NCBI GenBank assembly: GCA_024639005.1
Contig: JAHEJD010000007.1
Span: 1-64,000 of the forward strand
Direction: 5' to 3'
From: Chromatiaceae bacterium
Lineage (GTDB): Bacteria; Pseudomonadota; Gammaproteobacteria; Chromatiales; Chromatiaceae
DNA length: 64,000 bases
A program made the translations under genes and the position numbers. Shown here one piece after another: positions 4,735 to 63,498 of this stretch. The notes below the pieces were generated by a model. It ran no database searches and had not been told where the DNA came from. It saw nothing but the letters and a program-made list of their open reading frames with translations. Position 1 is the first letter of the stretch. The number at the start of each line of letters is the position of its first letter.

Positions 4735-4737
4735 GAG

Positions 4738-6407: not shown

Positions 6408-6922
6408 TGTCGAGGAAATCGGCGAGGACGGCGATAAATCACTGCTCTCCAGCTATGCGGCCGAGGGAGCAATCATCGTGGCAGATGGCGATTTGGTTGG
6501 GATCCAGCGGAGGACGATACACGGCGTTGCGGAGCATTTCAGAATTCATAGCAGGCGGAACAATACGGTCTAATGGAGTACAGGCTAGGCGTAAGGAGAA
6601 TGTGGTCCTACCTGAAATCAGGGTGGCCGATAAGTTAAGGTCCCGACATTCTCTTCATCGCTCAGCGGCCGCTCGATGCAGATGCACGGGACCTTGCCAG
6701 AGAAACCCTCGCGCTATCGAGCAACCAGTTGATCTGCTCGCCGGTTAGCGGCGTGAACCCATCGTCCGGGAATAGCCGGCGATGCCCGAAACGCGCGCGT
6801 CATGACCAGCGGCAGAGCAGTTGCCCGACGACGACCAGGTTATCGGCAGTCCGGCCAAGGAGCGCCACGCCGTTGGGCACCACGACCGCGAGCCCTTCAC
6901 CAGTCTTTGCGCCGACGATAGC
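6408..6922. other. gene-free stretch with a possible IS66-type remnant
   Basis: No intact gene is visible in about 515 bases. On the minus strand around 6700-6790 the translation RRLFPDDGFTPLTGEQINW, continuing LLDSA, resembles the C-terminus of IS66 TnpB proteins (xFPxx...LTxxQLxWLLDG). The match is short and no terminal repeats or other transposase parts are visible, so this is only a hint that an insertion element once sat between the decayed glycan genes and the HupE-like gene. Confidence 0.25.
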
Positions 6923-8080: not shown

Positions 8081-8118
8081 AATGCCGGAGCCCCATCTCA
8101 TTCTGATAACCCGACAGC

Positions 8119-8940: not shown

Positions 8941-9026
8941 CGCATTTTCTGAAGCAGGCGATTCGAGAGGCCCCTGGGGGCTGACGCATCTGGCTCTGTC
9001 GCATCTTTTTCGGGGCTGCGCTTGCA

Positions 9027-9995: not shown

Positions 9996-10217
9996 AGTAA
10001 TACAAGAAATTGCCGGGCCCTACCTCTGCCGCTTGTGTTTGCGTGATAATACTCAGACGGCCGCCAAAGACCATAGTGGCAAACAGCGATTCTGCGATAC
10101 GGCGCTGTCTGCCCAGGCGCTTGATTGCGACGCCGTTGCTGCGCCGGGGTGCAACGATTAGCATACTCTAATACTTAGACGCGACCTCCTTGCCGGGGAG
10201 CCCTGGAGCAATACGCC

Positions 10218-11009: not shown

Positions 11010-11190
11010 CCTCGCAATCAACCCCCGTACTGGGGCTTTCGCCTGAACCTGCGAAGATCTTCTTGGAGCCTATACCCCACTGAGAAATTCAATCGACTAC
11101 TTCGTTGGCACCGGCCTGCAGGCGAGTAATGCACTCCCGCTCGACCAGGAAGATGTTACCCACGGGCAGCGCCGGCACCGATCTGCCTCA

Positions 11191-12714: not shown

Positions 12715-12769
12715 AGGGATTTCCTCGAGCCAAAAGGGTTTTCCACGTCCGGCATATCCAGAAATAGCG

Positions 12770-13516
12770 TCAGGCCGAATGTATAACGACGAGCTTCTCG
12801 ACGCGCATGTCGTGAAAGGTGTAAGGGATTCCGCCGACGCCGAGACCGGATTCACGCAGCCCGGCGAACGGCATCCAATCGACGCGAAACGCGGTGTGAT
12901 CATTGACCATGACCGCCGAGGCCGCCAATCGACCCGCTGTGTTCAACGCAAAATCGATGTCGCGGGTGAAGACCGCCGACTGAAACGCGAACGGCAGTGC
13001 ATTGGCCTGCTGGATGGCCCAGTCTAGGTCCCGGTAGGGGTAGACGCAGATCACCGGGCAACCGGCAGCGACCGCGGGACCCACTTGACGCACGACGAGA
13101 TTGAGCGGGTGCTTGAACGCGCTCACCGCAACGACGACGCCCATGGGCTCGTGGTGAGTGAACGCCAGTCTCCCGGCGGAGGCAGGTGTGACGCCCATGG
13201 GGATCTCTCGCCCGGATTCTGAGCGCAGCAACTCGGCGCAGTTGCGCAGGCCGTCGACCGCACGCGCGACCTCGACGCGCGAGTCCACGAGCGGCTTGCC
13301 GCCCTCGTGCGCCGCCGCCATCGCGAACGCCTCTGCCCGCTCACTGAGCAGATCCGCCGCGCGATTGAGAATCGCCATCCGTTGATCGATTGCCAGCCAA
13401 CCCGAGCGATCGATAAACAGCGCCTGTGCCCTGTTCAGGGCTTGGTCCACCGCGTCGGTATCTACGGTATCGACCCTGGCGATGGTCTCGCCGTCGTAGG
13501 GCGCAATCACGTCCAT
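12770..13516 (-). pseudogene. aldehyde dehydrogenase with internal in-frame deletion
   Basis: The open frame of 248 codons contains the N-terminal part of an NAD-dependent aldehyde dehydrogenase (VIAPYDGETIARV, HEPMGVVVAVSAFKHPLN, VRQVGPAVAAGCPVI) and then the C-terminal part (CVYPYRDLDWAIQQANALPF, NDHTAFRVDWMPFAGLRESG). Intact enzymes have about 470 to 480 residues. The missing middle would contain the catalytic glutamate and cysteine and most of the NAD site. The deletion joins AAGCPVI to what is normally GPVVCVYPY, so short homology at PV(I/V) may have guided it. Reading backwards from the ATG at 13516, the frame continues with family-like residues (LPTQLAIQAAPSGT) to the end of the upstream gene without a start, hinting at a second lesion. 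It probably encodes no active enzyme. It lies between an acetolactate-synthase-like and a glutamate-synthase-like gene. Confidence 0.8.
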
Positions 13517-45057: not shown

Positions 45058-45825
45058 GTGACGTTCAATGCCCAAGGCACTGATCCGGTAGAGGCCCTGC
45101 GGCCGGTCGACCTGGAGATCGAACCCGGCGAGTTCATCGCCCTCGTCGGGCCATCGGGATGCGGCAAGTCGACGCTGTTGAATGTCCTGGCGGGCTTCAT
45201 CACGCCAAGCGTCGGCAGCGCCTATGTCGGTGACGAACCCATCACCAAGCCGGATATCGATCACGGTATGGTGTTTCAGGACTATGCCCTGTTCCCCTGG
45301 CTCAACGTCATCGATAACGTCGCGTTCGGCCTCGAACGCCAGGGGGTCGGCAAGCAGGAACGCTACGAGCGGGCGCGCGAAAACCTGTCGCTCGTCGGCC
45401 TGAAGGATTTTGCCGAGAACAGGATCAACGAACTATCCGGTGGCATGAAACAGCGCGTCGCCATCGCCCGGGTCTTCGCCACCGACCCCTCCGTAATTTT
45501 GATGGATGAGCCGTTCGGCGCCCTCGACGCACTGACCCGGCGGTTCCTTCAGCATCAGCTCCTGGAGATCTGGCAGCGCAATCGCAAGACCGTGGTGTTC
45601 GTGACGCATTCTGTCCAGGAGGCGATATATCTCGCAACCCGGGTGGTCGTCATGACGGCCCGACCGGGTCGGATCAAGTTGGATCAAAAGATCAACCTGG
45701 TCTACCCGCGCGATTTCACGAGTGACGACTTCGTGCACCAAGAAAGGCTCGTGTACGACCAGCTCGACGAGGAGCTGGCCAAGACCTTCAAGCTCGAGGG
45801 CGGTGCAGGGACCTTCCGTGACTGA
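45058..45825 (+). CDS. ABC transporter ATPase (nitrate/taurine/sulfonate type), 5' end uncertain
   Basis: A complete ABC ATPase core. Walker A is GPSGCGKST, the Q-loop is [20 protein letters not shown], the signature is [19 protein letters not shown], Walker B is [15 protein letters not shown], and the H-loop is [11 protein letters not shown]. It matches the TauB/SsuB/NrtD family. The only good start is a GTG at 45058, but family-like residues (GISTKRID) continue in frame about 8 codons further upstream without an ATG, so the native start seems lost and expression may be poor. No permease or binding-protein gene lies nearby; an amidase gene starts inside its stop. The protein would have energised uptake of an amide or similar compound, an inference from the amidase neighbour. 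Confidence 0.75.
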
Positions 45826-47096
45826 AACACGGCGGCGACCGGTCGACGGCGTTGCGACCAGTGTCGACGTGGTCGAGTCCTTCCTCGAGGCGGTCGCGCA
45901 GCGCGACACGGACTTGGGCGCATTCGTGCAGATCGACAGCACACGGCTGCGCGCCGAGGCGGCGCTGCTTGACGCCGTGCCGCAGGACGCCCGTGGTCCG
46001 CTGCACGGGCGACTCGTGGCCGTCAAAGAGGTGTTCGATGTCGCCGGATACACCTGCGCCTGGGGGACGCCCATCCATCGTGACCGGATACCGACGACGG
46101 ACGCCGCCGCCGTGCGCCTGCTGCGCGATGCCGGCGCGATAATAGCCGGTATTTCCGTATCTACCGAGTATGCAATGTCGCGCGTCGGGCCCACGGTCAA
46201 TCCCTGGGACCCGGCCCGCACGCCGGGCGCGTCATCGCAGGGCTCGGCCGCCGCAGTCGGCGCCGGCTTGGTGCCCTTGGCACTCGGTTCGCAGACGATC
46301 GGCTCTGTGATCCGGCCGGCCGCCTATTGCGGCTGCGTCGGGGTCAAACCAACCTGGGGCATGATCGACGTCACCGGCTCCATGCCGCTGGCGGCGCCCA
46401 TCGACCATGTCGGATATCTGGCCTCCAGCACGGACCTGGCGCGCACCGCGCTCGCGCTTCTGGCGCCCAGGCTCGATTCTACCGTCAGACCGGACCGGGT
46501 CATCGCCATGCAGCCCTGGTACGACGCCGAGACGGACGCGGACGTCATCGCGGCCGTGGCATCGGCAGTAGAGGTCCTCGGCAAAGCTGGCCTCCCCGTC
46601 GAGCAGGCCGGATTGCCGGCGTGGATCACGCAGGCCGAGGCGCAGGTGCTGGATACCATTCTCGCCCATGGCATGGCGCGGAGTCATACGGCTGATTTCG
46701 ACCGGGCTGCCGATCGCATGACGGCGCGGATCCGAGATTACATTGCGCGCGGCCGGGCGCTTCCCCGAGTCGGCCTATGCGGCGGCCCTGCGGGACCGTG
46801 AACGAATCGCGGATGCGTTAGACGCGCTACTGGGCGATGGCGTCGCCCTGATACCGGCAACCACGGGGATCGCACCGCTGTTGCACGACGGCACCGGCTC
46901 GCGCGCGCCACAACGCCTTTGGACGCTGGCGGGCTGCCCGGCGATCACGGTGCCCTTCGGACGCGCAGCGGGAATGCCGCTGGGGGTTCAGCTTGTCGCG
47001 GCGCGCGGCCACGATCATGCCGTGCTTGCGACCGCCGCGCAGTTGGAGGCCGGTGCGCCCGGCCTTTCGACCGCGACACCGCACTCGCGTGGATAG
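45818..47096 (+). pseudogene. amidase, frameshifted in a C4 run
   Basis: An amidase-signature enzyme starting at the GTG at 45818 within the ABC gene stop (GTGACTGA). The catalytic lysine is in LVAVKEVFDVAGYT, the serine-rich loop is TPGASSQGSAAAVGAG, and the third block GSQTIGSVIRPAAYCG holds the nucleophile. At the CCCC run at 46763-46766 the frame shifts: ARGRALP continues as ESAYAAALRDRERIADALD in the +1 frame to a stop at 47096, where GCPAITVPFG and MPLGVQLVAARG complete the family. As read, the first frame stops at 46799-46801 after 327 residues. One extra C explains everything, so a sequencing error is possible. The intact enzyme would hydrolyse an amide. Confidence 0.8.
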
Positions 47097-47374: not shown

Positions 47375-49765
47375 GTGAACAGCGAAACAGCTAAGCGGGT
47401 CGGTATCCAATGGCTCCTGGTCTGGTTGGGGATCCTGTGCAGCCCTGTTCCAGGACTCGCCGAAACGGCTGGTCTTAGCGGCGAGCGTATCAGGATTGGC
47501 GTGCAGAGCGCAGATGCCATCGGCAGCCCGGCCAAGGCCCACGCCCTGACCTGGGAGCAGAGAACCGGGGGCAGGGCCGAGATCGTACAGTCGGACTTCG
47601 GCCGGCTTTTTCGCGACTACATGGCCGCGTTGCAGGCAAAACAGCCGGCCTACGATGTTCTGCTCTTTCCCGCTTCCTGGGCCGCGGATTTCTATCCCTA
47701 TCTGGCCGAGATGCCAGACGAGTATCGCGACAGCGATGCCTTCGATGACATCCATCCCGCCTATCGCGAAAGGCTGATGACCTGGGACGGGAAGTGGATC
47801 GCGGCGACGGTGGACGGCGACCTGTTCAGCGGGTACTACCGCAAAGACCTGTTCAGTGACCCAAACAACCAGGCGGCGTTTCGCACCCGCTACGGCTACG
47901 AGCTTTTCCCCCCCGACACCTGGAGCCAGTACCGCGACATCGCGGAATTCTTCAATGGCCGCAACTCGCCTGACGGGGGCCTGATATACGGAACGGCCGA
48001 GGCCTTTGCGCGCGACGGCAAACAGTTCTGGACCGTTTTCAGTCGTGCCTCGGCCTATACCAACCACCCAGATTTCCCGGGCGCACAGTTCTTCGACCCG
48101 GACACCATGCGTGCCCAGATCGACAACCCAGGCTGGCTACGGGCAGTGCGCGAACACAAAGAGATATTGGCGTTCAGCCCGCCAGGCGCACTGCAATTCG
48201 GGATCGTGGAGGCAAGAGATGCGTTCCTGGACGGCCACACCGCAATGGCGCTGGATTGGGGCGACACCGCACAGCTTACGGAGGATCCGGCACGCTCGAA
48301 GGTCGCCGGCAAGGTCGGCTACTTCGTACTGCCAGGGACCACGCGGGTCTGGGACAGCCGGCTGTGGCGGTGGGACGACAGAGACTCAGTCTACAAGGCG
48401 CCCTTTCTCGCGTTCGGCGGTTGGATGGCCGGGGTGCCAAAGCACAGTCGGCATCAACAGGCGGCATGGGACTACATTATGTGGCTCTCCAGCCCCGAAA
48501 ACAGCCTGCGTGACGTGGTCACCAGCGGAACCGGCATCAATCCCTACCGTTTCACCCACTTCACCAACATCGATGCCTGGACCAAGGCCCTGTCGATCTC
48601 CGCCGCCTCTGAATATCTCGGCATGGTGCGGGCCAGCCTCGATTCCCCACATGCGGCGATGGATCTGCGAATCCCCGGCTTCTACCGCTACACCGAGGTG
48701 CTCGAGGAGGAACTGACTCGGATACTGCGCGGCGACAGCGAGGTGGATGCAGCCATGCATCGCGCAGCCGCGGCCTGGAATTCGATTACCGATGAACTGG
48801 GGCACGCGCAGCAGCTGGCCGCCTATCGCACCGAAATGGCATTGCCGAAAGAGCCTGGCGGTCCCCGGCCGGGCACGCACGCACACAAGGTGCGCTACGT
48901 GATCGGATTCTCACAGGCGACCACCACCGAGCCATGGCGCCTGCTGTTCAACAAGGAGCTTCGGGCCGAAGCCGCCCGCCATCCGGAGGTGAAACTGGTC
49001 GTGCGCGATGCCATGGACTCTGTGCGGCGCCAAGTCGTCGACATGGAAGACCTGATCGCCCGGCGCGTGGACGCGATATTGGTCTCTCCAAAAGTGACCG
49101 ATGAGCTGACGGCACCGGTCAGCAAGGCATTTTCGCTCGGGATACCGGTATTCGTTCTCGATCGCGACGTAGCCAACGACCGTTACACGCAGTACATCGG
49201 CGGCGACAACCGGGAGATCGGCCGCGCGGCCGGACAGCGGGCGGTGCAGTTACTGGGCGGAGAAGGTCTGGCAGAGGGCAATGTGATCGAGATCTGGGGC
49301 GGCATGGCCTCGTCACCCGCCGCCGACCGCCACAGCGGATTCGTCGAGGTGGTCCAACGGGAACCCGGGGTGAAGATCATCAACGCGCCGCAGGATGGCG
49401 ACTGGAAGCAGGATCTCGCCTACGGAATCATGGCCGAGGCGCTGGATGCCCATCCGCATATCGATCTGGTATATGCACACAACGACCCCATGGCCTACGG
49501 CGCCTACCTGGCGGCGCGCGATGTCGGGCGCGAAGAGGATATTGCGTTTCTCGGCATCGACGGCATCCCGGCCGAGGGCGTGAAATGGGTACAGGAAGGT
49601 ATTCTGGACGCCACCTTCTTATACAAGACCCCCGGCGAGGAGGGCATCCGGCAGGCACTGCGTTTTCTTCGCGGGGAACACGTGCAGAAACGCCTGATGC
49701 TGCCGACATCGACCATCGATAAGACCAATGCGGCCAAGATACTCAGCCGGTATGCTGCAGAATGA
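47375..49765 (+). CDS. exported fusion of two ABC-type solute-binding domains
   Basis: A 796-residue exported protein (signal peptide ending about PVPGLAETA). Residues about 40 to 480 are like family-1 extracellular solute-binding proteins: QAKQPAYDVLLFPASWAADF, VDGDLFSGYYRKDLFSDPNN, GTAEAFARDGKQFW, FLAFGGWMAGVPKHSR. Residues about 505 to 796 are a ribose-type periplasmic-binding domain: VRYVIGFSQATTTEPWRLLF, RVDAILVSPKVTDELTAPVS, VFVLDRDVANDRYTQYIGGD, YAHNDPMAYGAYLAARDVGR and AFLGIDGIPAEGVKWVQEG. Two different binding folds in one chain are unusual. The start is a GTG at 47375 with GGTGAG upstream. No permease or ATPase follows. Instead a GGDEF-EAL membrane protein begins 34 bases later, so it is probably a sensor. 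Confidence 0.85.
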   Translation: MNSETAKRVGIQWLLVWLGILCSPVPGLAETAGLSGERIRIGVQSADAIGSPAKAHALTWEQRTGGRAEIVQSDFGRLFRDYMAALQAKQPAYDVLLFPASWAADFYPYLAEMPDEYRDSDAFDDIHPAYRERLMTWDGKWIAATVDGDLFSGYYRKDLFSDPNNQAAFRTRYGYELFPPDTWSQYRDIAEFFNGRNSPDGGLIYGTAEAFARDGKQFWTVFSRASAYTNHPDFPGAQFFDPDTMRAQIDNPGWLRAVREHKEILAFSPPGALQFGIVEARDAFLDGHTAMALDWGDTAQLTEDPARSKVAGKVGYFVLPGTTRVWDSRLWRWDDRDSVYKAPFLAFGGWMAGVPKHSRHQQAAWDYIMWLSSPENSLRDVVTSGTGINPYRFTHFTNIDAWTKALSISAASEYLGMVRASLDSPHAAMDLRIPGFYRYTEVLEEELTRILRGDSEVDAAMHRAAAAWNSITDELGHAQQLAAYRTEMALPKEPGGPRPGTHAHKVRYVIGFSQATTTEPWRLLFNKELRAEAARHPEVKLVVRDAMDSVRRQVVDMEDLIARRVDAILVSPKVTDELTAPVSKAFSLGIPVFVLDRDVANDRYTQYIGGDNREIGRAAGQRAVQLLGGEGLAEGNVIEIWGGMASSPAADRHSGFVEVVQREPGVKIINAPQDGDWKQDLAYGIMAEALDAHPHIDLVYAHNDPMAYGAYLAARDVGREEDIAFLGIDGIPAEGVKWVQEGILDATFLYKTPGEEGIRQALRFLRGEHVQKRLMLPTSTIDKTNAAKILSRYAAE

Positions 49766-49799
49766 TGCATGCTGATCCCAATTTCACCGATCTCCCGAG

Positions 49800-52700
49800 A
49801 TGAGCCAGCGCAATCGCCGAAGCCGAAGCTTTAGGCGCAGCCTGTCGCTGACTTTTGCCGGCAGCGCGCTGATACTCCTGCTGGCGGGCGGCTTCGCGCT
49901 CTATTTAATGGACCAGCTGGGCAGCGCGGTGGAGCGGGCCACCAGCGATATCCTGCCGAAGGCGCTGGTCGCGCAGAGCCTGTCAGAGCACAGCGCCCTG
50001 CTCGCCGCATCGGCCCCGAGCCTGGCCAGCGCCCGCGACCTGCAGGAGACCCGCCAGGTGGTGGCGAGCCTGGATCAATTGAAGCGACGGATCGACGAAA
50101 ACCTCTCGGTCCTCGAGCAGACCGCGAGATCGCAGCAACTGGTGGAAGTGCGCAGCAACGTGGCGATGCTCACCGACATCCTGTCGGGCCTGAAGGGCGC
50201 CACCAATAAGCGCATTGCCCTGGATGAGCGTCACGACCGGATAATGGCGCACATCCGCGAGGTGCACAGCGAATTTTCCGACACCGTCAGCCCGGTGGTG
50301 TGGGGCGTCTCTTCGCTGACGCGACTGTTCGGCAAGCGCGTTGCGCGTGTCAACGCCGCGGCGCTCAGAAAGCTGCGTGACCATGATGTGATGCACCTGG
50401 TAGCGCTGATGGATCTACAGCTCGCCTACCGGGATCTGATCAATGGCGACAATGAGCATCGCGCTCGCGCCCTGCGGTGGCAGGATTTTCTGAGGGCCTG
50501 GGAGCATGTGCGCAACGTTGACAACGGTGACACGGATAGTGGCCTAACGCGACGCCTGCGGGTGGCCGGTGACAGCTTCCGGGCCGACCTGTCACGTCTG
50601 CCCGAGGGCGTTGCCGGCCCGCCCAACAGCGAGTTCGAGGGGGCGCTGGCAGAGGCCGTCGACCGCAAAAAGGCGGAACTGTCGCAAAACCTCGGGGTTA
50701 CCGTACAGAACACCGAGTCGACGATCGCCGCGTTCGTCGCGCAGACCGTCAAGGATATGGGATATGCGCTGGATATCAAGGCCGAAGGTAACCTGCTGTT
50801 CGCGCTGCTGACCGCGGTAGCAGATGTAGACAGCAGGGAGAGCGTCTCCGTGCTGCAGGATCGCTTCAAGCGTTCACTCGCGACTTTCCTCGTATCGGCG
50901 GAAGATTTTCTGAACAGTCAGTTGTCGCGGCGCAATCCGATTCTGGCGGACAACGTGGCAGAGATCGAAGGACAGCTTCAACTCCTGGGGCATGGGCCGG
51001 AAAATCTGTTCGATATCCGCCGTGGACAGCTCACAGCGCAGGCGCGGATAGAAGGGCTGTTGGCCGGTAATCGCGACGTGGCTGCGCAGCTCAAGCAGCA
51101 TGTCGAGGAACTGGTGGCCGATGTCCAGGCCCAGGCCTCTGCGCTCAGTTCGCAGTTGCAGCAGAGCCGCGGTGCAGACCGTGCCCTGCTGGTGCTGGTG
51201 TTTATGATCGGCCTGTTCCTGCTGGTGCTCATCGCGTTCTTCTCGATTCGCACCCTGAGCAGACAGGACCGCGAGATCCGGCAGGCGGCAACGGTTTTCG
51301 AGAGTACCGGCGAGGGCGTCATTATCATCGATCCGCGCGGCCGAATCGTTGCGGTCAACCAAGCTTTCAGCGACTCGTCGGACTACGAACGCACTGAGCT
51401 CGCCGGCCGGCATATCCGGGTCTTGCGATCGAGACGGCATCGCAAGGCCTTCTACCAGCAAATGTTCGAGGCCATCGCGGCGAACGGACGCTGGCAGGGT
51501 GAGGTCTATACGCGCAAAAAATCCGGCGACTCTATACTGGAATGGCTCACCGTCAATGCCGTGAAGGACAACGAGGGTCGGGTTAACCAGTACGTGGCGG
51601 TTTTTTCCGATGTCGCGATCGTAAAGCGGTCGCTGCAGCAGCTCGACCATCTCGCGCACCACGACACGCTCACGGACCTGCCGAATCGACTGCTGCTGCA
51701 GGACAGGCTGGACCATGCCATTCACCGCGCCCATCGCCTGGGCCACCGTCTGGCCGTGCTTTTTCTTGACCTGGATCGGTTCAAAAACATCAACGACACC
51801 CTTGGGCATGCGGCCGGGGATCAACTGTTGCGAATTTTTGCCGGCCGACTGTCACGGCTGGTTCGCGAGGGTGACACCGTAGCCCGTCTTGGTGGCGACG
51901 AATTCATGGTGCTCCTCGAAGACTATGCGTCCGACGAGGATCCGCGCGTCGTTGCGCAGAAACTGCTGGATTCCCTCGACGAGGCATTCGATATCCAGGG
52001 TCATCAATTGTTCATCACGGCCAGCATCGGTATCAGTCTGTACCCGGATGACGGCATGACCGTGGATGAACTGGTGCGTAATTCCGACGCCGCAATGTAT
52101 CGCGCCAAGCAGAAGGGCAAAAACAGCTACCATTTCTACACCAGGGATCTCACTACCGCAGCCCACGAGAGCCTCCGCCTCGAGTCGAGCCTGCGGCTGG
52201 CCCTGGACAGGGGCGAGTTCGTGCTGCACTACCAGCCAAAGTGGAACACGCAGACTGGTGCTATCACGGGTGTCGAGGCACTGCTCAGATGGCAGCATCC
52301 GGAGCGCGGCCTCATCGGGCCGGGCGCCTTCCTGAATACGCTCGAAGATTGTGGCCTCATCCTGCCGGTCGGCAGATGGATATTGCACACCGCCTGTCGG
52401 CAGGCGCAGGCGTGGCAGGCACGGGGCCTGCCGGCGATACAGGTGTCCATCAATCTCTCGGGGCGGCAGATCGTCGAGAGCAGCCTGCTGCAGACCGTCG
52501 CCGATGCATTGGCGGAAAGCGGTCTCGACCCGCGATGTCTGGAGCTCGAATTGACCGAGGGCTTTATCATGCACCAGCCCGATGAGGCTATCGTGCTGCT
52601 GAATTCACTGCGCGAGATGGGTGTCGGCATCGCAATCGATGATTTCGGCACCGGTCACTCCTCGCTCAGCTATCTCAAGCAGTTGCCCATCCAGAAACTG

Positions 52701-52973
52701 AAAATTGACCGCTCTTTCGTGCGCGATATCCCCACGGATCCGGACGACATGGCAATCACCAGTGCGATCGTGGCGCTCGGCCACCGACTGCAGATGACAA
52801 TCGTCGCCGAGGGCGTCGAGACCGAGGAGCAGCTTAGCTTTCTGATCAATGAGGGCTGTGAAGAGGCGCAGGGCTACCTGTTCAGTATGCCGCTCCCTGC
52901 GGAGGAACTCAGCACTCTTCTGCACGACGGTTTCTACGCACCTACGCTACCCACCCGGACGGCGAATGCGTAG
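49800..52973 (+). CDS. membrane PAS-GGDEF-EAL signalling protein
   Basis: A 1057-residue protein. An N-terminal helix (about 16-40) and a second near 460-482 bracket a long periplasmic helical sensor region of about 420 residues. Then come a PAS domain (AATVFESTGEGVIIIDPRGR), a GGDEF domain with an intact RLGGDEFMVLL active site, and an EAL domain with GVEALLRW, NLSGRQIVESSLL, LELTEGFIMHQ and IDDFGTGHSSLSYL. All key metal residues of the EAL barrel look intact, so both c-di-GMP synthesis and breakdown are possible. The start ATG at 49800 lies 34 bases after the fused binding protein, which probably docks on the periplasmic region. This would couple a ligand to c-di-GMP levels. Confidence 0.92.
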   Translation: MSQRNRRSRSFRRSLSLTFAGSALILLLAGGFALYLMDQLGSAVERATSDILPKALVAQSLSEHSALLAASAPSLASARDLQETRQVVASLDQLKRRIDENLSVLEQTARSQQLVEVRSNVAMLTDILSGLKGATNKRIALDERHDRIMAHIREVHSEFSDTVSPVVWGVSSLTRLFGKRVARVNAAALRKLRDHDVMHLVALMDLQLAYRDLINGDNEHRARALRWQDFLRAWEHVRNVDNGDTDSGLTRRLRVAGDSFRADLSRLPEGVAGPPNSEFEGALAEAVDRKKAELSQNLGVTVQNTESTIAAFVAQTVKDMGYALDIKAEGNLLFALLTAVADVDSRESVSVLQDRFKRSLATFLVSAEDFLNSQLSRRNPILADNVAEIEGQLQLLGHGPENLFDIRRGQLTAQARIEGLLAGNRDVAAQLKQHVEELVADVQAQASALSSQLQQSRGADRALLVLVFMIGLFLLVLIAFFSIRTLSRQDREIRQAATVFESTGEGVIIIDPRGRIVAVNQAFSDSSDYERTELAGRHIRVLRSRRHRKAFYQQMFEAIAANGRWQGEVYTRKKSGDSILEWLTVNAVKDNEGRVNQYVAVFSDVAIVKRSLQQLDHLAHHDTLTDLPNRLLLQDRLDHAIHRAHRLGHRLAVLFLDLDRFKNINDTLGHAAGDQLLRIFAGRLSRLVREGDTVARLGGDEFMVLLEDYASDEDPRVVAQKLLDSLDEAFDIQGHQLFITASIGISLYPDDGMTVDELVRNSDAAMYRAKQKGKNSYHFYTRDLTTAAHESLRLESSLRLALDRGEFVLHYQPKWNTQTGAITGVEALLRWQHPERGLIGPGAFLNTLEDCGLILPVGRWILHTACRQAQAWQARGLPAIQVSINLSGRQIVESSLLQTVADALAESGLDPRCLELELTEGFIMHQPDEAIVLLNSLREMGVGIAIDDFGTGHSSLSYLKQLPIQKLKIDRSFVRDIPTDPDDMAITSAIVALGHRLQMTIVAEGVETEEQLSFLINEGCEEAQGYLFSMPLPAEELSTLLHDGFYAPTLPTRTANA

Positions 52974-54060: not shown

Positions 54061-54645
54061 CAGGGCTCCTCTCCATTGCACCGGGCAGATCCAGTGTGAG
54101 CCCGGGTTCAACTGGGGTTAGCGGCCAATCAGGTAGGATTTTAAGTAGCAAAGACCGGGACAAATAAATTTGCGCCCCCGCATAGCCCGAGAAGCCGCGG
54201 AAGGGTTCCGCGTTGAACCCGGCGTCATGAAAATGGGAGCCTCAGCGCTTTCGGCACCAGGATGGCGGTGGCCGTGCCGACGTATTGCTGATTTTTTGGG
54301 ACACCAGAAACAACTTGAATGGTACTCAAAGCGGCGACGAACGCCCCGCCCGCCTTGCGGCCCGCTCAATTTACCTTTTCATTTATAGGCATATTCGACG
54401 ATGTTGTTTGTGCGCGCCTGATGGTGTGCAGATGTGGATGGACAACTCGCAGCGGAATAGACCACCGAGACCGGATTAAAGTTTACAGCCGCAACCAAGC
54501 CATCGATTTTTCTGTCGGTCTTGCTTTCACCGTGCGTCATTGGGTGAATTTTCACCAGATTGATCGTGAATCATTCACCGCCGGGTACGGCTCCAGCTCG
54601 TTAGTTTTCAGTCTCCACCGCACACCAATATGCAAGGAGACGACA
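54061..54645. promoter_or_regulatory. divergent intergenic region of channel and haloperoxidase
   Basis: About 585 bases without a supported gene. The 3' part, within 110 bases of the haloperoxidase start, carries the two Crp-like palindromes described separately. The left part holds some open frames without ribosome binding sites or recognisable motifs. Confidence 0.4.
54543..54579. promoter_or_regulatory. two Crp-like palindromes upstream of the haloperoxidase gene
   Basis: GGTGAA-TT-TTCACC at 54543-54556 has six-base perfect arms. GTGAA-TCA-TTCAC at 54566-54578 has five-base arms and is flanked by matching C and C on either side. Their centres are about 22 bases apart and lie 75-100 bases upstream of the start codon. 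Crp-family sites have GTGA-N6-TCAC; here the gap is four or five bases, so an altered recognition geometry would be needed. A third similar palindrome lies at 63792. Confidence 0.55.
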
Positions 54646-56757
54646 ATGGGGATCCCCTATTCCGAACCGGATCCGGCTGGCTCGGAGCGCGCACGGATCA
54701 GCAAAAACCTTCGTGATCTCGCAACCGATATTGCCCGGCTTCGCCCGCAGGCACTGACCCAGGCGAACCGGGAAGAGACAGACCACGGGCCGCAATACCC
54801 CGCCAACTTCACCAAGGGCCTCAAGCATGACGAGAGCGGCCTCCTCGAACACTCAACCGATTACCACTGTTTCGTCGAGGCGATCAACTCGCCCGACCGC
54901 ACGTTGTTCGAAAAACAGGTCGAGACTGCGGAAAGCCGCGGTGTGGTCTATCACTGCACTGCGAAAGACACCTGTCACGGCAAGGAGGCGATCAAGTGGC
55001 GCGGCTGGGAAAGCCCGCGCGCCGGCCACGTCTATGAGCTGCAGGGCGCAGACGCCGGCGCCTGCGGTATGGCGCCTGCCCCGCGCGTCGGGTCGAGCGA
55101 GCTGACGGCTGAAATGGCCGAGGTCTATGCGCTGGCCATACTGCGCGACGTGCCTTTCACGACGATCTGCAAGGGCGGTGGCGAGCGCCTGTGCGCATCG
55201 TCGGATGAGGTGACCGACGCAAAACTTAGCGCGGTGGAGATCGTCAAGTTGCTGAACGGTATGCCTTTCTATTCGGGCGCCAACCCGCTCTCCTCGACCG
55301 CGCACAATGTTGACGAGCGTGGCCTCAATCGTTTCGAGCGAAATCGCCGCTTCGCCCGGACACAATCAGCCGATGGCCAGCTGACCCCCGCAACAGCGTT
55401 TCGTGGTTCCACCAAGGGCGCTTTGGTCGGTCCATACCTGTCGCAGTTCATGCTCATCGGCGCGAAGTCGCTTGCCTGCGCTGGCGGTGGAACGGCCAAT
55501 TACCCAGGCCGGGACGCGCCATTCGACCTACAGGACGGCTACATACCCTACGGCTCATTGATCATCGATCAGCGTGCACTGACGCACAAAAACTGCCTCG
55601 ACTACATGACAGACTGGTGCGCCTGGCTGGACGTGCAGAATGGCGCCAATTTTAAGGGCGCGGACAAATTCGAGGAAAACCGCCGGTTCATTACCACGCC
55701 GCGCGACCTGGCCACCTATGTGCACTTCGATGCACTCTACGAGGCCTATCTCAACGCGGCACTGATCCTGCTCGCCATGGGCGTTCCGGCCTCCAAAGGA
55801 TTTCCTGAACCCAGCCCCTCCGGCGGGCGGGATGCGTTTGCGACCTTCGGCGGACCGCACGTGCTGTCGCTAGTCACCGAGGTTGCGACCCGCTGCCTCA
55901 AGGCAGTACGGCGACAGAAGTTCAACTACCATCGCCGTGCCCGACCGGAGGCGATAAGTGGACGTCTGACCCTGGCCTGTCTCGGCCTCCAAGACGACGC
56001 GTTCAAGAGTAAGCTGGGCTGCGCCGCTGCCGCTTTTGAACGCGCCCTCAGCGAGATTCCTGCCGATCTGCGATCAGCGATCGTCGCGCACAATGCCGAA
56101 CAGAATGCCAACATGGCCAGCATGCGCGGCCTCGATTGCGGCAACGACGTCTGTCTGCCGGGGCAAGTCGACGAAGGCATATTTACCGCCTGCAACCTGC
56201 TCCTCCCCATGGCCTTTCCGGAGGGATCGCCGATGCATCCGGCCTATGGCGCGGGGCATGCGACCGTGGCTGGTGGCTGCGTCACCATGCTCAAGGCATT
56301 TTTCGAGATCTTCGAGGACTGCGACAGCCACGAGGAGCGCGCCCTGTGCGACAAGGACGGGAAACCGATTGTCTATGTCCCGAATGCAGGCGGTTCGCGG
56401 CTGGTCAAAGATCCGAAATTCAAGGGCAAGCTGACCATCCAGGGCGAGCTCGACAAATTGGCCGCGAACATCTCGATCGGCCGCAACATGGCCGGGGTGC
56501 ATTACTACTCCGACTACTACGACTCCCTGCGCATGGGCGAGCGTGTCGCGGTTGGAATCCTGATAGAACAGTCATCGACCTATGGCGACGGTATGGAGAC
56601 CACGTTCAAATCATTCGACGGGGATTACATCAGTATCTATGGCGAGGGGGGCAGCTGCGGAAGACTGTCCATCCTGGATCGCGACGGCAATCCGGTGGCG
56701 CCTCGCGACTGGTGGCTTCGCCACGTCATGGGCGGGGAGATCTCCGAGGATCTCTAG
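54646..56757 (+). CDS. vanadium-dependent haloperoxidase (bromoperoxidase type)
   Basis: A 703-residue protein with the vanadate-binding residues of the family in order. K425 lies in RRQKFNYH and R433 in RRARPE. The block SPMHPAYGAGHATVAGG carries the acid-base H538 and the phosphate-like anion site, and NISIGRNMAGVHYYSDYYDS has R613 and the vanadate-ligating H619. The spacings (8 between K and R, 6 between R and H) are those of algal and cyanobacterial bromoperoxidases. The enzyme would oxidise halides with H2O2 to hypohalous acid. No signal peptide is visible. The ATG at 54646 has AAGGAG eight bases upstream. A GC-rich gene with cysteines, it stands alone on its strand, after the channel gene. 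Bromide, chloride or iodide preference cannot be read from the sequence. Confidence 0.92.
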   Translation: MGIPYSEPDPAGSERARISKNLRDLATDIARLRPQALTQANREETDHGPQYPANFTKGLKHDESGLLEHSTDYHCFVEAINSPDRTLFEKQVETAESRGVVYHCTAKDTCHGKEAIKWRGWESPRAGHVYELQGADAGACGMAPAPRVGSSELTAEMAEVYALAILRDVPFTTICKGGGERLCASSDEVTDAKLSAVEIVKLLNGMPFYSGANPLSSTAHNVDERGLNRFERNRRFARTQSADGQLTPATAFRGSTKGALVGPYLSQFMLIGAKSLACAGGGTANYPGRDAPFDLQDGYIPYGSLIIDQRALTHKNCLDYMTDWCAWLDVQNGANFKGADKFEENRRFITTPRDLATYVHFDALYEAYLNAALILLAMGVPASKGFPEPSPSGGRDAFATFGGPHVLSLVTEVATRCLKAVRRQKFNYHRRARPEAISGRLTLACLGLQDDAFKSKLGCAAAAFERALSEIPADLRSAIVAHNAEQNANMASMRGLDCGNDVCLPGQVDEGIFTACNLLLPMAFPEGSPMHPAYGAGHATVAGGCVTMLKAFFEIFEDCDSHEERALCDKDGKPIVYVPNAGGSRLVKDPKFKGKLTIQGELDKLAANISIGRNMAGVHYYSDYYDSLRMGERVAVGILIEQSSTYGDGMETTFKSFDGDYISIYGEGGSCGRLSILDRDGNPVAPRDWWLRHVMGGEISEDL

Positions 56758-57050: not shown

Positions 57051-57176
57051 ATGGGACCTAACGGAGAGACAAATGTGGTGCAGATTCACCCGAAGAGACG
57101 GTACACTCGACGTTGCCAAAACTGCTATTCCTCGTCTTCGCCGCGCGCGGCCGAGGCACTCGAGGCCGAGTTGTAA
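57051..57176 (+). CDS. possible 41-residue small protein
   Basis: An ATG at 57051 with GAGGAG eight to ten bases upstream opens a 41-codon frame ending TAA at 57176. The product is basic (VVQIHPKRRYTRRCQNCYSS) with a C-x2-C pair. It ends 44 bases before the FecR-type gene and may be a leader or small partner. I do not recognise it. The good ribosome binding site supports it, its shortness does not. Confidence 0.4.
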   Translation: MGPNGETNVVQIHPKRRYTRRCQNCYSSSSPRAAEALEAEL

Positions 57177-57220
57177 CAGCGGGCGGCGACCGGGTCGGAC
57201 CGCAATGCGGGAGGAAGCGG

Positions 57221-60200
57221 ATGCCAAGACTTGAAAGGATTTTCGCTGGCGCCGTTTTGTTTTTTTTCGCGGTAGCTGCAACACAGAGCGCACCCCACCA
57301 ACGTTGCGACACCTGGACCGCACGTCTCGTGTCTACCCAGGGCGTGGTCGAGGTGCAGTACCCCAACCGCACAGAATGGCGAGCCACCGAACTCGGCCAA
57401 ACATTCTGTCTCGGGGATCGGCTGCGAGTGCAAGGCAATAGCCGCGCCGCGCTTGAGCTGGCAAACGACACCATCCTCAGATTGGATCAGAAAACGATGC
57501 TGCTGCTACCCGAAGCGGCGACTGAGGACGATTTCTGGGTAGATCTTTTTGAAGGCGCCTTGTATCTGCTCAGCCGGGTCAAGCGCAGCCTCGAGATCCG
57601 CACACCGTTCGTCAACGCGGGCCTAGAGGGCACCGAATTCGTCGTGCGTGTACTCGACGACCAGACGATCGTCTCCGTGTTGGAGGGAAAGGTCGCGGTC
57701 AGCAACGCGCTCGGGCGCCTCAGCCTGATCCCTGGCCAGACTGCGGCCGCGACCAAAAACAGTGCACCGATCCTGCGCCTGGAACTCCGCACCGAGGACG
57801 CGGTCCGCTGGGCACTTTACTATCCACTCATCCTCGATCCTACTCAGCCCGGCATCGATCGCGCGGTGCTGGAGGCCCAGCGCGCGCTGATCGTCGGCCG
57901 CGCCAGCCAGGCCCGCGCGCAGCTCGATGCGATCTTGGCGAAGGACCCGTCGAACACCCACGCGCTTGCCCTCGCCTCGATAGTCGCCTTGGTCCAAAAC
58001 GCCACGGACCAGGCCAAGGATCTCGCCGAACGCGCGGTTGCGGTCACCCCCGGGGATACTAGCGCGCAGTTGGCCCTATCCTACGCAAATCAGGCGCTTT
58101 TCGATCTATCCGGGGCCAGAGCAGCCGCCAATGCGGCAGTGGAAAGCGATCCCGACGACGCGATTGCCTGGGCAAGGCTGGCCGAGATCTTGGCCTCGCT
58201 CGATGTCGTCGGCGCGGCCCTGAGTGCTGCCCGAAGGGCGGTCGAACTCGCGCCCGGACTGTCGCGCACCCAAACCGTATTGGGTTTCGTCGCGTTGATG
58301 CGCCTGGAGCTCGACCAGGCCGCTGCCTCCTTCGAAACGGCAATCGTTCTGGATCCGACCGATCCGCTACCCCGGGCCGGGCAGGCCCTGGTGAAGATTC
58401 GCCGTGGCGCCGTTGCCGATGGCACACGGGACCTGGAGATCGCCGTCAGTCTGGATCCAGCCAATTCGCTGGCGAGGACTTATTTGGGTAAGGCTTATTT
58501 CGAACAAAAGAGAGATCGCGAGGCCGGCGTCGAGTTCGAGCGGGCCAAACAACTAGATCCGCTGGATCCTACCCCCTGGCTGTACGACGCTCTGCGAAAA
58601 CAAGCCGACAACGATCCCATTGGCGCCTTGCGCAATCTCGAACAGTCCATCGCTCTAAACGACCACCGTGCAGTCACACGCTCCAGACTGCTGCTGGACG
58701 GTGACCGCAGCGCACGGACCGCAGACCAAGGACAAGTATTCCGCGAACTCGGCTTCGAGCGCTTGATCCCCGGCATCACCGCGCGTTCCTCGATTTTGGA
58801 TCCAGGTTCACCTGGAGTTCACCGGTTGCAGGCCGATGCCACCAGGCCGCGCGAACAATCGGCGCGTGTCAGCGACCTGCTGCAGTGGCAGCTCAACGCA
58901 CCGCTGACCACGAATTTGCTGCAGCTCCAGCAGACCGAGGCGAATCTGGTCATCACCTCCGCCGCCGACCTGGTGGCACTCTCAGAATCTGAATGGTCGC
59001 AGATGTTCTCAACCGATGGGCCCTTTCTGCGCTTCAACGCAGTCGCCGGCTCCCATGATCTGTTGAGCAACGATCTCACGTTGGGCTACCAGGCAGAGAC
59101 TGTGGTGTTCGGCGTGACACAATATCACTACGAGTTCGACGGCTTCGCAGACAACAATGACCAGACACGAGACATCTATGGCGCTTCGATGCAGTGGCAG
59201 CCGTCGCCGACGACCGTCCTGTTTGGCGAATACCGGGACGATGACCAGGACTTCGGCGACCTGAGCCTCGGTTATGGCGGGGCGGATGTCGCACCCGACC
59301 TTCACACCTCCATCGACGCCGATCGATGGCGTGTTGGCATCCGCCACCAGGTGCGCCCCGACACCCAGGTCATTGCTACAGTCGCTGGATTCAACAGCAC
59401 CGAGAAGCAGCGTGACCGCGTGTTTTTCCCAGAGATTCCGATGATCGCGCCGGCGCTGACGACTCAGATAGACGCCAAGACCGACGATGACGGCTGGCTG
59501 GGAGAACTCCAGGTGATCCGCCGTTGGGCGCCAGGCGCGCTGGTTGCTGGAGCCGGGTACTACGACTCGGACTCCGACCTCAAGTCCCTCGCCGTGACCG
59601 ACGCCGAGGTCCCCTCCGTCGGCAACATCACCATCGATCGCCAGACCATCCGGGACGACACCAATACGCAACACACGAACGCCTACGCCTATTGGTCCGC
59701 AAGCTTACTCTCAGACCTGGACTACACCGCTGGCCTTGCCTACGACGACTACGACGGGCCGGAGCTGAATCGTAACCAGCTCAGCCCGAAACTGGGTGCA
59801 ATATGGCGCCCGGCGGAAGGCCTGCAGTTTCGCGCCGTCGCCGCGCGCGGCCTCAAGCGCACCCTGGTAGCGGAACAGACCGTTGAGCCTACGCAGGTCG
59901 CCGGATTTACGCAGATGTTCGACGATCTTAACGGGACCGAAGCGCGACTTTACGGTATCGCACTGGACGCGCGCCCGAGGCCTGATCTCTACCTTGGCGG
60001 GGAACTCAGGGCCCGCGATCTCAAAGTGCCATTTACGGATGTCAATGGCGCCGACGAACGAACCGACTGGGACGAACTTACCGGTGCGCTCTACGCCTAC
60101 TGGACGCCCACCGACCGGCTGGCGCTGCGCGCCGAGCTGTCTTACGAGGACCTGGACTACGACAACCGGCTGCCTCGCCCCGACAAGCCCTGGAGCACGT

Positions 60201-60526
60201 TATCGCTGGACACCATCCAGCTGCCCATTTCCATGTCATATTCCGTGCTTCGCGGGTTGACGACCAGGGCTACCGCGCGCTGGGTCGACCAGGATGCCCA
60301 CCTGGTTCAGGTCGCCATCCCGGGACAACCGCGCCGCCGCGAGTCCGACAGCTTCTGGACCGCCGATCTGGAATTCGACTATCGGCTGCCGAAGTATTAC
60401 GGCCGAATCACCATTGGTGCGAAAAACCTGTTCGACCAGAGCTTCGGATATCAGGAGCCCGATCTCAACCAACCGACGCTGGCGCGCGAAAGAACTTTCT
60501 ACGTACGTCTAAATCTGGCATTGTGA
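57221..60526 (+). CDS. FecR domain-TPR-beta-barrel outer-membrane protein
   Basis: An 1101-residue exported protein. A signal peptide (PRLERIFAGAVLFFFAVAAT) is followed by a FecR-like domain (ARLVSTQGVVEVQYPNRTEW, FEGALYLLSRVKRSLEIRTP, TPFVNAGLEGTEFVVRV). A run of TPR repeats follows, with helix-rich segments such as ALELAPGLSRTQTVLG-like and LGKAYFEQKRDREAGVEFER. The last 520 or so residues have alternating strands, with Asp-rich turns and a C-terminal NLFDQSFGYQEPD...RTFYVRLNLAL block, as in TonB-dependent or porin-like barrels. There is no plug domain. The ATG at 57221 has GGGAGGAA just upstream. The FecR part normally sits in the inner membrane; here it is fused to an outer-membrane protein. 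A small lipoprotein and a CHASE2 cyclase follow. Confidence 0.8.
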   Translation: MPRLERIFAGAVLFFFAVAATQSAPHQRCDTWTARLVSTQGVVEVQYPNRTEWRATELGQTFCLGDRLRVQGNSRAALELANDTILRLDQKTMLLLPEAATEDDFWVDLFEGALYLLSRVKRSLEIRTPFVNAGLEGTEFVVRVLDDQTIVSVLEGKVAVSNALGRLSLIPGQTAAATKNSAPILRLELRTEDAVRWALYYPLILDPTQPGIDRAVLEAQRALIVGRASQARAQLDAILAKDPSNTHALALASIVALVQNATDQAKDLAERAVAVTPGDTSAQLALSYANQALFDLSGARAAANAAVESDPDDAIAWARLAEILASLDVVGAALSAARRAVELAPGLSRTQTVLGFVALMRLELDQAAASFETAIVLDPTDPLPRAGQALVKIRRGAVADGTRDLEIAVSLDPANSLARTYLGKAYFEQKRDREAGVEFERAKQLDPLDPTPWLYDALRKQADNDPIGALRNLEQSIALNDHRAVTRSRLLLDGDRSARTADQGQVFRELGFERLIPGITARSSILDPGSPGVHRLQADATRPREQSARVSDLLQWQLNAPLTTNLLQLQQTEANLVITSAADLVALSESEWSQMFSTDGPFLRFNAVAGSHDLLSNDLTLGYQAETVVFGVTQYHYEFDGFADNNDQTRDIYGASMQWQPSPTTVLFGEYRDDDQDFGDLSLGYGGADVAPDLHTSIDADRWRVGIRHQVRPDTQVIATVAGFNSTEKQRDRVFFPEIPMIAPALTTQIDAKTDDDGWLGELQVIRRWAPGALVAGAGYYDSDSDLKSLAVTDAEVPSVGNITIDRQTIRDDTNTQHTNAYAYWSASLLSDLDYTAGLAYDDYDGPELNRNQLSPKLGAIWRPAEGLQFRAVAARGLKRTLVAEQTVEPTQVAGFTQMFDDLNGTEARLYGIALDARPRPDLYLGGELRARDLKVPFTDVNGADERTDWDELTGALYAYWTPTDRLALRAELSYEDLDYDNRLPRPDKPWSTLSLDTIQLPISMSYSVLRGLTTRATARWVDQDAHLVQVAIPGQPRRRESDSFWTADLEFDYRLPKYYGRITIGAKNLFDQSFGYQEPDLNQPTLARERTFYVRLNLAL

Positions 60527-60993: not shown

Positions 60994-63060
60994 CTAGTGA
61001 CGCGCAATTGTGCTCGCATCCGCGTTCCATGCGCACAGCTCGTGCACGTCGAGCGGCGTATGCTTGCCGGCCAGGACAAAAGAACCGAGCGGCCTCGACA
61101 CCGCCGCATCCACACCCATCAGTGTCTCGGCCGACACTAGTAGAGTGGTCCCAAGCTCTTTATTGAGTGCCTCCAGGCGCGACGCCGTGTTGACGATATC
61201 GCCCACCGCGCGGTATTCGAAATGGTCTCCGGCACCTACATGGGCCATGGTCACCGCGCCACAGTGCAGTCCGATGCGGGTTGGTAACACCGGGCCATCA
61301 CTCGACGCACTCCGACGTTCTACCGCGTCGAGGATCTCGAGCGCGGCCCGGCAGGCGGCAGTTCGGGTCGCCAGCTCGTCCCGCCGAGCGGCCCAGATCG
61401 CCATCATGGCATCGCCGACCACGTCCGAGATGATCCCTCCGTGCCTGCGCACGGGTTCGAATATCAACTCGTAGTACTCGTTCATGAAGGCCGCCAGCGC
61501 ATCGGGCGTCATGCCTTCGGATAGGGTCGTGTAATGTGCAGCGTCAGAGTAAAGGCAGACGCCATACACGCTCTCGACGTCCTGTCCGGGATGGAAACCT
61601 TCACGCACCAGCCGCTCGACAACGTGATCAGGCAGATAGTAGCCGAAGATCTCCCGGATACGGATTCGATCGCGTTTGGCCTCACGATAATGCAGGGTGG
61701 TCGCGACGAACAAGGCGAGCGGAGCCTGTACCAGCAGAGGCGTCACCAGGGGTAGCCAGAGATAAGCCTCGGTGAACAGGCGGACCGCAGCGTAAGTATA
61801 TGCGCCGCATAAGCACAGCAGCGCGACAGCCGCCCAAAAAGGCGTTGTGAGGCGTGCGAAAAATCCGAGCAGCAGGCCCCAGCTCAATACCAGCAACAAG
61901 GTATGGCCCGGCGACAGCGGTTGAATCGTTGTCCGGTCGCGCAAATTTGCCAACGCAGTCGCCAGAATCTCGATACCGCTCAGATCATGGCCCGTTTCTG
62001 GGTCCGAGTAGGGCGTCGTGAATTCGTCCTGCTGTTCCCACTGGACCGGACTGGAAAGACCGACAAACACGGCACGCCCAGAATAGGCATTGGCGTTCGA
62101 CCCCTCACCGGGCTCTCCGGACAGTTCCCGCAGGGCCTGATCGTAGGGGATTGTCTGAATAGTCCAGGGCGGCCCATAGAAATTGAGGTACCGGCTGGGT
62201 GGATCGGCGAGCGCGGCGAGCACACTCTCGAGCAGCTCGCTATTCGTGTCACCCTCGTCCGCAGCCCCAATCTTGATGGCCTGACGAAGAATTTGCTCCC
62301 GCAGTCCAGGCCTTTGGCGCAGCGCAGCCGTCAGCGGTTCTGCCGCCTCGGCATATGTTCGCGCCTCGGACACAATTTCCCCTGAAGAAGGAAGTTTCGC
62401 CGCCAATTCTGGGGCCGTGCTTTCAACACTCCGCCATAGCGTGCCGTACGTCGAGCGCGCCTGCACCAGCAAGGCAAGCAGCGGCAAAGAGGCCGCATCG
62501 CCGGCATTTCGGTCGAAGTTCCAGAACTGTGCTACCTGCAGCGGCACCTTCGGCAGCGTGAAAGGCGCCGTTGCCACGGCGGCGGCTGCGATTGGTGCGA
62601 CTGGGAGGACGCGTCGATGCAATGCGGCATTCAGACCCTCGGTGCCTGATCCAACGAGACCCATCACACTCTTGTCGAGAAACTCCAACAGCAACACGTT
62701 TCCTGCCGCTTCAATGGCCGCAGCCAACACCTGATCCTCGGCACCCCGCGCGTGTCGAAACAGCAGATCAAATACGATTGTGCGGGCACCAGCGTCGCGC
62801 AACCCCTCGACCAGTTCCGCGTGTAGCGTTCGCGGCCATTGCTTCGCTTCGTAGGGAACATGGAGCGCATCGGACGCGGCCTTGGTGATGGCAACTACTG
62901 TGATGCCGGCGGGCGCGGCTTGGGGACCTCGGGCTTGAAAGAACCAGTGCAAACCCATGGACTCCTCCTTCGCCCAGCCCCAGGGCAGGGTCACGAACAG
63001 CCCCCCAGCCACGGCGCAGGCAAGCCCCAGGAATACAGCTGACGTCAGTCTTTTCGGCAT
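60994..63060 (-). CDS. CHASE2-domain adenylate/guanylate cyclase
   Basis: A 688-residue protein. After one N-terminal helix, residues about 35 to 380 form a CHASE2 sensor domain (GITVVAITKAASDAL, ARTIVFDLLFRHARGAEDQV, SGRAVFVGLSSPVQWEQQDE with DLSGIEILATALANL). Three membrane helices follow, and then a class III cyclase domain of about 190 residues (VCLYSDAAHYTTLSEGMTPD, GIISDVVGDAMMAIW, VAVGDIVNTASRLEALNKEL-type end). The two metal-binding aspartates are present. CHASE2 senses an extracytoplasmic signal; the cyclase would make cAMP. The ATG at 63060 has GGAG four to five bases upstream. It converges with the FecR-barrel and lipoprotein genes, a pairing known for CHASE2 and FecR proteins. Confidence 0.9.
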   Translation of the reverse strand: MPKRLTSAVFLGLACAVAGGLFVTLPWGWAKEESMGLHWFFQARGPQAAPAGITVVAITKAASDALHVPYEAKQWPRTLHAELVEGLRDAGARTIVFDLLFRHARGAEDQVLAAAIEAAGNVLLLEFLDKSVMGLVGSGTEGLNAALHRRVLPVAPIAAAAVATAPFTLPKVPLQVAQFWNFDRNAGDAASLPLLALLVQARSTYGTLWRSVESTAPELAAKLPSSGEIVSEARTYAEAAEPLTAALRQRPGLREQILRQAIKIGAADEGDTNSELLESVLAALADPPSRYLNFYGPPWTIQTIPYDQALRELSGEPGEGSNANAYSGRAVFVGLSSPVQWEQQDEFTTPYSDPETGHDLSGIEILATALANLRDRTTIQPLSPGHTLLLVLSWGLLLGFFARLTTPFWAAVALLCLCGAYTYAAVRLFTEAYLWLPLVTPLLVQAPLALFVATTLHYREAKRDRIRIREIFGYYLPDHVVERLVREGFHPGQDVESVYGVCLYSDAAHYTTLSEGMTPDALAAFMNEYYELIFEPVRRHGGIISDVVGDAMMAIWAARRDELATRTAACRAALEILDAVERRSASSDGPVLPTRIGLHCGAVTMAHVGAGDHFEYRAVGDIVNTASRLEALNKELGTTLLVSAETLMGVDAAVSRPLGSFVLAGKHTPLDVHELCAWNADASTIARH

Positions 63061-63498
63061 CGGGCTCCGCCCGGCCCGGCGTCCACGACCCCGCGCCGCC
63101 GCTTTTTGAACATACCAGCAGCCGTGCCCGCCGCACCCCGATTGGTCTGGTGTCGCCTCGCCACTCGTCCTCGGTCGGCCGGGGCTTTCACACGAAAGCA
63201 GACCGCTACCCACCTCGATCCTGTCAAACAGGCCCTATTGAATGCACATGAACATCACGACGTCTATACCTTCGATCTCCTGCTCCGGCGGCCGATCCAC
63301 CGCTCCAACACGGAACGCGTTACAGAGGGTGAGCTAAGAGCCTGCGCGGCAGAGCGTGATGTAGCTGCGGCTTCGGCACTTCGGCACGCCTCGGCGCCCC
63401 TTCTTGTCGCGCAGTGCCCACAAGGCTCCTCGAACGACCACCGAACCGCACTCGAACTGGGAAACCGTCGGCTACCCGTAGCTCTACCGCGCAGGCTC
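63061..63498. repeat. gene-free stretch with an inverted repeat (63338-63498)
   Basis: No gene is visible in this 438-base stretch, which should contain the cyclase promoter at its left end. GAGCCTGCGCGGCAGAGC at 63338-63355 pairs with 63481-63498 in 17 of 18 positions, and the pairing continues imperfectly inward (GTAGC and CGG blocks). The right arm ends exactly at the stop of the 55-residue gene, so it may act as its terminator, or the 161 bases may be a small palindromic element. Confidence 0.6.

Follow-up and report, generated by a model that had tools for sequence, protein, structure and literature searches.

A fused double solute-binding protein encoded beside a TorS-type GGDEF-EAL receptor as a probable dedicated periplasmic sugar sensor

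A gene in which two solute-binding proteins (SBPs) of different families are joined in a single chain lies 34 bp upstream of a gene for a membrane receptor with PAS, GGDEF and EAL domains in the window, the whole stretch of 64,000 nucleotides analysed here (Table 1). The pair probably encodes a dedicated sensor for sugars in the periplasm, on the plan of TorT/TorS, in which the C-terminal half of the fusion (C half) docks on the receptor and the N-terminal half (N half) supplies a second sugar site. A dedicated three-part sensor is indicated since the co-encoding of the N half, the C half and the receptor (hereafter the module) is conserved, no sugar permease occurs at the module loci checked and the N halves form a clade of their own.

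Table 1. Features of the gene pair and their positions in the window
Feature	Coordinates	Strand	Details and basis
Fused double SBP gene	47375..49765	+	GTG start, 796 aa; fusion also in 8 other loci
Parts of the fusion protein			Signal peptide ~1-30; CUT1-type SBP ~36-488; linker; RbsB-type SBP ~507-793
N half, complete CUT1-type (SBP_bac_1/8) binding protein	47480..48838	+	Pfam, fold and sequence matches
C half, complete Peripla_BP_4 (RbsB-type) binding protein	48887..49762	+	Pfam, sequence match to 2x7x
Membrane receptor gene	49800..52973	+	ATG start, 1057 aa
Order of the receptor			TM1 (~19-37), periplasmic sensor, TM2 (~463-481), PAS, GGDEF, EAL
TorS-type all-helical periplasmic sensor, receptor residues 38-462 (~425)	49911..51185	+	Pfam, profile, fold; longer than TorS
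PAS domain, receptor residues ~498-607	51291..51620	+	Pfam
GGDEF domain, intact GGDEF and I-site (REGDTVARLGGDEF)	51654..52124	+	Pfam E 5e-52, motif check
EAL domain, motifs EALLRW, NLSG, ELTE, DDFG, KID	52188..52892	+	Pfam E 3e-76, motif check

Pfam searches with the fusion protein placed SBP_bac_1/SBP_bac_8 at residues 51-390 (E-values 3e-13/4e-15) and Peripla_BP_4 at residues 510-768 (E-value 8e-45). AlphaFold2, applied to the fusion and to the receptor sensor as single chains only, returned two complete two-lobe SBP folds for the fusion with a junction near residues 488-507 (mean pLDDT 90.3, pTM 0.79), which bears out an earlier sequence-only reading of the first gene as two periplasmic binding folds of different families. 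A chimeric ORF or an assembly artefact is ruled out because the fusion recurs in eight other loci at 60-66% identity. No polyamine-SBP model is among the NCBIfam hits of the fusion. In a plasmid collection, 1502 records match the fusion, the best of them importer SBPs resembling the N half; none of these records covers 80% of the fusion, and the sensor domain of the receptor finds no match in the same collection.

The closest solved structure to the N half in fold comparison is the CUT1 SBP 5iai (Z 40.5, 391 residues aligned, rmsd 2.2), and 4rya, the molecule of which is named sorbitol-binding, is the closest by sequence. Assignment of this half to the PotD-like polyamine SBPs (the NspS kind) is not supported, the matches being sugar and polyol SBPs. 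Its relatives in importer operons (~45% identity) are CUT1 importer SBPs encoded with permeases and UgpC. Among the N-only relatives at loci longer than 12 kb (n=59), CUT1 permeases are found at 51-52 loci, ribokinase-like genes at 37 and RbsD/FucU-like genes at 33. In the phylogenetic tree, the N halves of the module constitute one clade (99/97) set apart from the importer SBPs, and the 99 positions conserved in the module clade and the transporter clade alike suggest a working pocket. As part of the best explanation, the N half would be derived from a CUT1 importer SBP; it may also have a structural role instead of ligand binding.

Other associations of N-type proteins were observed. The nearest N-half relatives in Thiocapsa and Aliiruegeria (L106-L110) adjoin a HAMP-containing hybrid histidine kinase, with neither a TorS-type sensor nor a C half, a possible separate recruitment of an N-type SBP to signalling. 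In relatives from the Competibacteraceae (L098, L099, L101, L102), an N-half-like CUT1-type SBP adjoins a CUT2 (RbsA/RbsC-type) ATPase and permease, the genes for which are followed in L102 (about 7900-12900) by a Peripla_BP_4 gene, and this importer may use SBPs of both families.

The closest solved structure to the C half by sequence is 2x7x (E-value 3e-54), named a sensor protein and presumably the periplasmic domain of the Bacteroides hybrid two-component fructose sensor BT1754; ribose-binding-type proteins come next. Sequence alignments show that the C half keeps Asp-Arg 596/597, Arg 652, Asn 703 and Asp 729, which we take to align with the pocket residues of RbsB-type proteins. TorT proper is not matched, the C half scoring 20.4 bits against the TorT model (TIGR02955), below its cut-off of 310. 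The C halves of the module group together in the tree, and their nearest neighbours are Peripla_BP_4 proteins encoded beside a sensor kinase or a GGDEF-EAL gene; single Peripla_BP_4 proteins are also encoded beside receptors of other sensor types (L039-L041).

The second gene had been read as a long periplasmic region followed by PAS, GGDEF and EAL, and its coordinates, strand and domains were confirmed; the Pfam scan found no HAMP domain between TM2 and PAS. With its GGDEF, I-site and EAL motifs intact, the receptor is predicted to be a bifunctional GGDEF-EAL protein. Pfam, profile comparison with the PDB and fold all identify its periplasmic domain as a TorS-type sensor. The Pfam TorS_sensor_domain (PF21689) matches the receptor with an E-value of 1e-7 over only part of the model, and several homologous receptors also match the domain; a sensor profile of 14 sequences retrieves TorS first from the PDB (E-value 1e-4); and the five closest folds to the AlphaFold2 model of the sensor (pLDDT 87.8) are all TorS (Z 19.2-19.8, 228-272 residues aligned), with McpZ (Z 16.5) and PilJ (Z 15.1) next below. 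TorS is bound by TorT, the periplasmic binding protein that reads it (PMC3795677). Thus, the anatomy of the receptor predicts an SBP partner, and an SBP is encoded immediately upstream. Sensor identity across the module is only 25-38%, as against 60-66% for the full-length fusions. The sensor of the fused systems is about 100 residues longer than that of the split Desulfobacterales systems (L051, L053, L105), and the long form also occurs in two other split systems (L055, L177).

Homologous loci were collected by a genome-wide scan and then annotated, and the module was found in three layouts. The fusion followed by the receptor is present in the window and in eight other gammaproteobacterial loci (L045-L050, L052, L093), the hosts of the fused layout being Competibacteraceae, a gammaproteobacterial symbiont, Sedimenticola, Thiocystis, Methylococcaceae and Halochromatium. 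In the second layout, an N gene, a C gene and the receptor stand in a row, as seen in two Desulfamplus (L051, L105), Desulfatirhabdium (L053) and another Pseudomonadota genome (L177), and the N and C proteins each have their own signal-peptide-like start. The third, in which the N gene is divergent from the C gene and receptor, is found in Pararhodospirillum (L055) and Roseospira (L054) of the Rhodospirillaceae. The separate N and C proteins of the module are 50-59% and 54-63% identical to the window, respectively, and in most loci the receptor gene closely follows or overlaps the C gene or the fusion (-38 to 124 bp). The module loci are not all independent events because some of the genomes are close relatives (L045-L047). 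This pattern of fusion and fission is a classic sign that N, C and receptor work together. Roseospira marina has a truncated C-half gene (L054:7162-7578, minus strand), with the N gene and the receptor apparently intact, while the gammaproteobacterial genome G068 (L035, about 4400-10400, minus strand) contains the whole pair with several frameshifts and stops and looks like a decaying copy.

The outputs attached to the sensor differ between the loci surveyed for them, namely the window, L045-L055, L093 and L105. They are PAS-GGDEF-EAL in the window, L048 and L049, GAF-PAS-GGDEF-EAL in L050 and L093, histidine kinases, mostly hybrid, in L045-L047, L052, L054, L055 and L105, and a SpoIIE phosphatase in L053; the L051 receptor sequence ends with its contig after HisKA. 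The input of the module receptors thus seems conserved and their output interchangeable. The sequence-only reading had proposed a two-ligand sensor controlling c-di-GMP and a search for the same fusion beside GGDEF genes. The search did recover GGDEF-EAL receptors beside the fusion (L048, L049, L050, L093), and the idea of an SBP module dedicated to a receptor and not to transport stands, given the conserved pair and the split halves beside the receptor without permeases; c-di-GMP as the essence of the system is not established, as homologous receptors carry histidine kinase or SpoIIE outputs. The sensor is rare in the sampled genomes of the class (4 of 369). Sampling of the Desulfobacterota was uneven. 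Genome G151 (94% complete) has a full-sensor receptor (L199:8548-11274) but yielded neither an N nor a C half, and G505 (82% complete) has C and receptor without N (L178); the N half is therefore not strictly required for the receptor family, and C and receptor appear to make up the core, N being an addition later widely kept. TorS-like sensors that are more distantly related are paired with a Peripla_BP_6 or a Peripla_BP_4 protein.

According to the preferred explanation, the RbsB/TorT-like C half would dock on the TorS-like helical sensor in the manner of TorT to report ligand occupancy. The N half would be a second sugar-binding site in that complex, held there by fusion in the window and present as a separate protein encoded alongside in Desulfobacterales. 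A ligand-dependent change in the sensor bundle would be passed through TM2 to the PAS domain, the signal from which would set c-di-GMP synthesis by GGDEF against breakdown by EAL, as NspS does for MbaA. We infer a physical complex, the half that docks in it, sugars as ligands, two of them, and the sign of any c-di-GMP response. The ligands are probably monosaccharides or sugar alcohols (pentose, hexose or polyol), and one sugar could serve both halves, because the kin of the N half lie beside ribokinase and RbsD/FucU genes and those of the C half bind ribose and fructose.

In a sharper form of this explanation, the two halves would bind different sugars and the receptor would answer to their combination, a possibility against which the balance presently leans. 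Such a coincidence gate would fit the presence of two complete folds that come from different SBP families and are conserved throughout the module. It would also fit the positions shared by the N half with the transporter clade, which are consistent with a working pocket, and the residues of the C half that align with the RbsB-type pocket. Against it, the genes around the N-half relatives and the RbsB-type relationship of the C half suggest that the chemistry of the two halves overlaps. Stated more generally, and tentatively, two SBPs of different superfamilies, each reading a sugar, might act jointly on one TorS-like receptor with an interchangeable output (c-di-GMP turnover, phosphorelay or SpoIIE phosphatase). 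If so, the cell would respond to a combination or ratio of sugars, or to two forms of one sugar.

It is rather unlikely that only the C half senses, the N half being a scaffold, a capture domain or a docking aid with its ligand lost or unused. Such a role would agree with the locus that has C and receptor without N (L178), with the TorT-like fold of the TorS partner, which is that of the C half, and with the single Peripla_BP_4 proteins beside receptors of other sensor types; however, every other intact module retains the N half, with an identity of 50-66% as against 25-38% for the sensor, across both fusion and fission.

An ABC-importer role as the main function of the fusion is ruled out by the gene neighbourhoods, the survey of permeases in the window's own genome and the N-half tree. 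A dual role, in which the fusion would signal while still serving an ABC importer encoded elsewhere, like MglB or MalE with chemoreceptors, is very unlikely. The occurrence of N-half relatives at ~45% identity in operons that also encode permeases and UgpC would be in line with this, but permeases are absent from the window and every module locus checked, as against 51-52 of the 59 loci of the N-only relatives, and the N halves form a separate clade. In the window's own genome (95.8% complete), the PF02653 matches are one pair in a single operon reading as urea/Liv type and hence there is no CUT2 permease, and no CUT1 operon is without an SBP, both CUT1-like operons carrying their own; these SBP and operon types were assigned by reading the ORFs. 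The earlier remark that no ABC permease lies nearby agrees with the neighbouring ORFs scanned around the fusion gene, and separate halves with transporter partners, named in advance as evidence against a sensor, were not seen, the split halves adjoining the receptor and not permeases. A nitrate/taurine-type ABC ATPase gene (45058-45825, plus strand) between a DUF364 gene and an amidase ends 1.5 kb upstream of the fusion and is unrelated to it; no permease or SBP was found among the neighbouring ORFs scanned. That the fusion and the receptor are functionally unrelated chance neighbours is scarcely credible, as the pair or its split form stands beside a sensor of one and the same type in gammaproteobacteria, Alphaproteobacteria (Rhodospirillaceae) and Desulfobacterales.

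Other genes of the window were also noted. Two overlapping frames (45722-46801 and 46743-47096, plus strand) share the amidase, and their matches fall in different parts of the Amidase model, which reads as a frameshift, real or from sequencing. An ORF of 812 aa (54319-56757, plus strand) has no Pfam or NCBIfam match and contains a PAYGAGHATVAGG stretch, presumably reminiscent of vanadium haloperoxidases. A FecR-TPR protein with a C-terminal beta-barrel match (57113-60526, plus strand) adjoins a CHASE2-adenylate/guanylate cyclase (60994-63213, minus strand), and the two form another sensor-type gene pair.

SBPs that talk to receptors are increasingly recognised, and the cases found use one SBP per receptor; SBP-controlled receptors, including those acting through c-di-GMP, are known (PMC9602780), and the same source cites the ScrA/ScrB/ScrC system. 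No double-fold version was known to the sequence-only reading, and a receptor served by two SBPs, whether fused or paired, was not found described in the literature searched, which covered few subscription journals and offered nothing closer than GlnPQ, NspS/MbaA, TorT/TorS and CuaD. An importer-derived and a TorT-like SBP joined for a receptor with a swappable output offer a natural test of two-input integration at one receptor, and the module genes are testable in the cultured species Thiocystis minor, Sedimenticola hydrogenitrophicus and Pararhodospirillum oryzae.

In the ScrA/ScrB/ScrC system of Vibrio parahaemolyticus, the periplasmic SBP ScrB acts on the GGDEF-EAL protein ScrC and ScrA makes a quorum signal; the window pair likewise has an SBP with a GGDEF-EAL protein, but ScrC is served by a single SBP and a ScrA-made signal. 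In the polyamine receptor NspS/MbaA of Vibrio cholerae, the bifunctional GGDEF-EAL protein in the membrane is under the control of a periplasmic SBP (PMC8967002). The window likewise has an SBP gene beside that of a membrane GGDEF-EAL receptor with catalytic motifs, although NspS is one polyamine-binding SBP and here two sugar-family SBPs meet a TorS-type sensor. For BT1754-type sensing in Bacteroides, the signal is monomeric fructose (PMC5061871). BT1754 (2x7x), to which the C half is closest in sequence among solved structures and which is also part of a sensor, has its binding fold within the kinase itself, whereas here the fold belongs to a periplasmic protein of its own and is joined to a second SBP. 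GlnPQ has tandem substrate-binding domains for amino acids fused to the importer (PMC8025302), thus resembling the fusion in having two binding domains in one chain, but here they belong to two different SBP families and there is no importer. TorT/TorS, which senses TMAO (complexes 3o1h, 3o1i and 3o1j), shares with the module the sensor fold (Z 19.8) and an adjacent type I SBP of the Peripla_BP_4 kind, and is resembled most by the hybrid-kinase members of the module. It has one SBP and a hybrid histidine kinase output, while the window has two SBPs in one chain, a longer sensor and a PAS-GGDEF-EAL output, and the module is best regarded as a variant of the TorT/TorS and NspS/MbaA plan that has two binding proteins.
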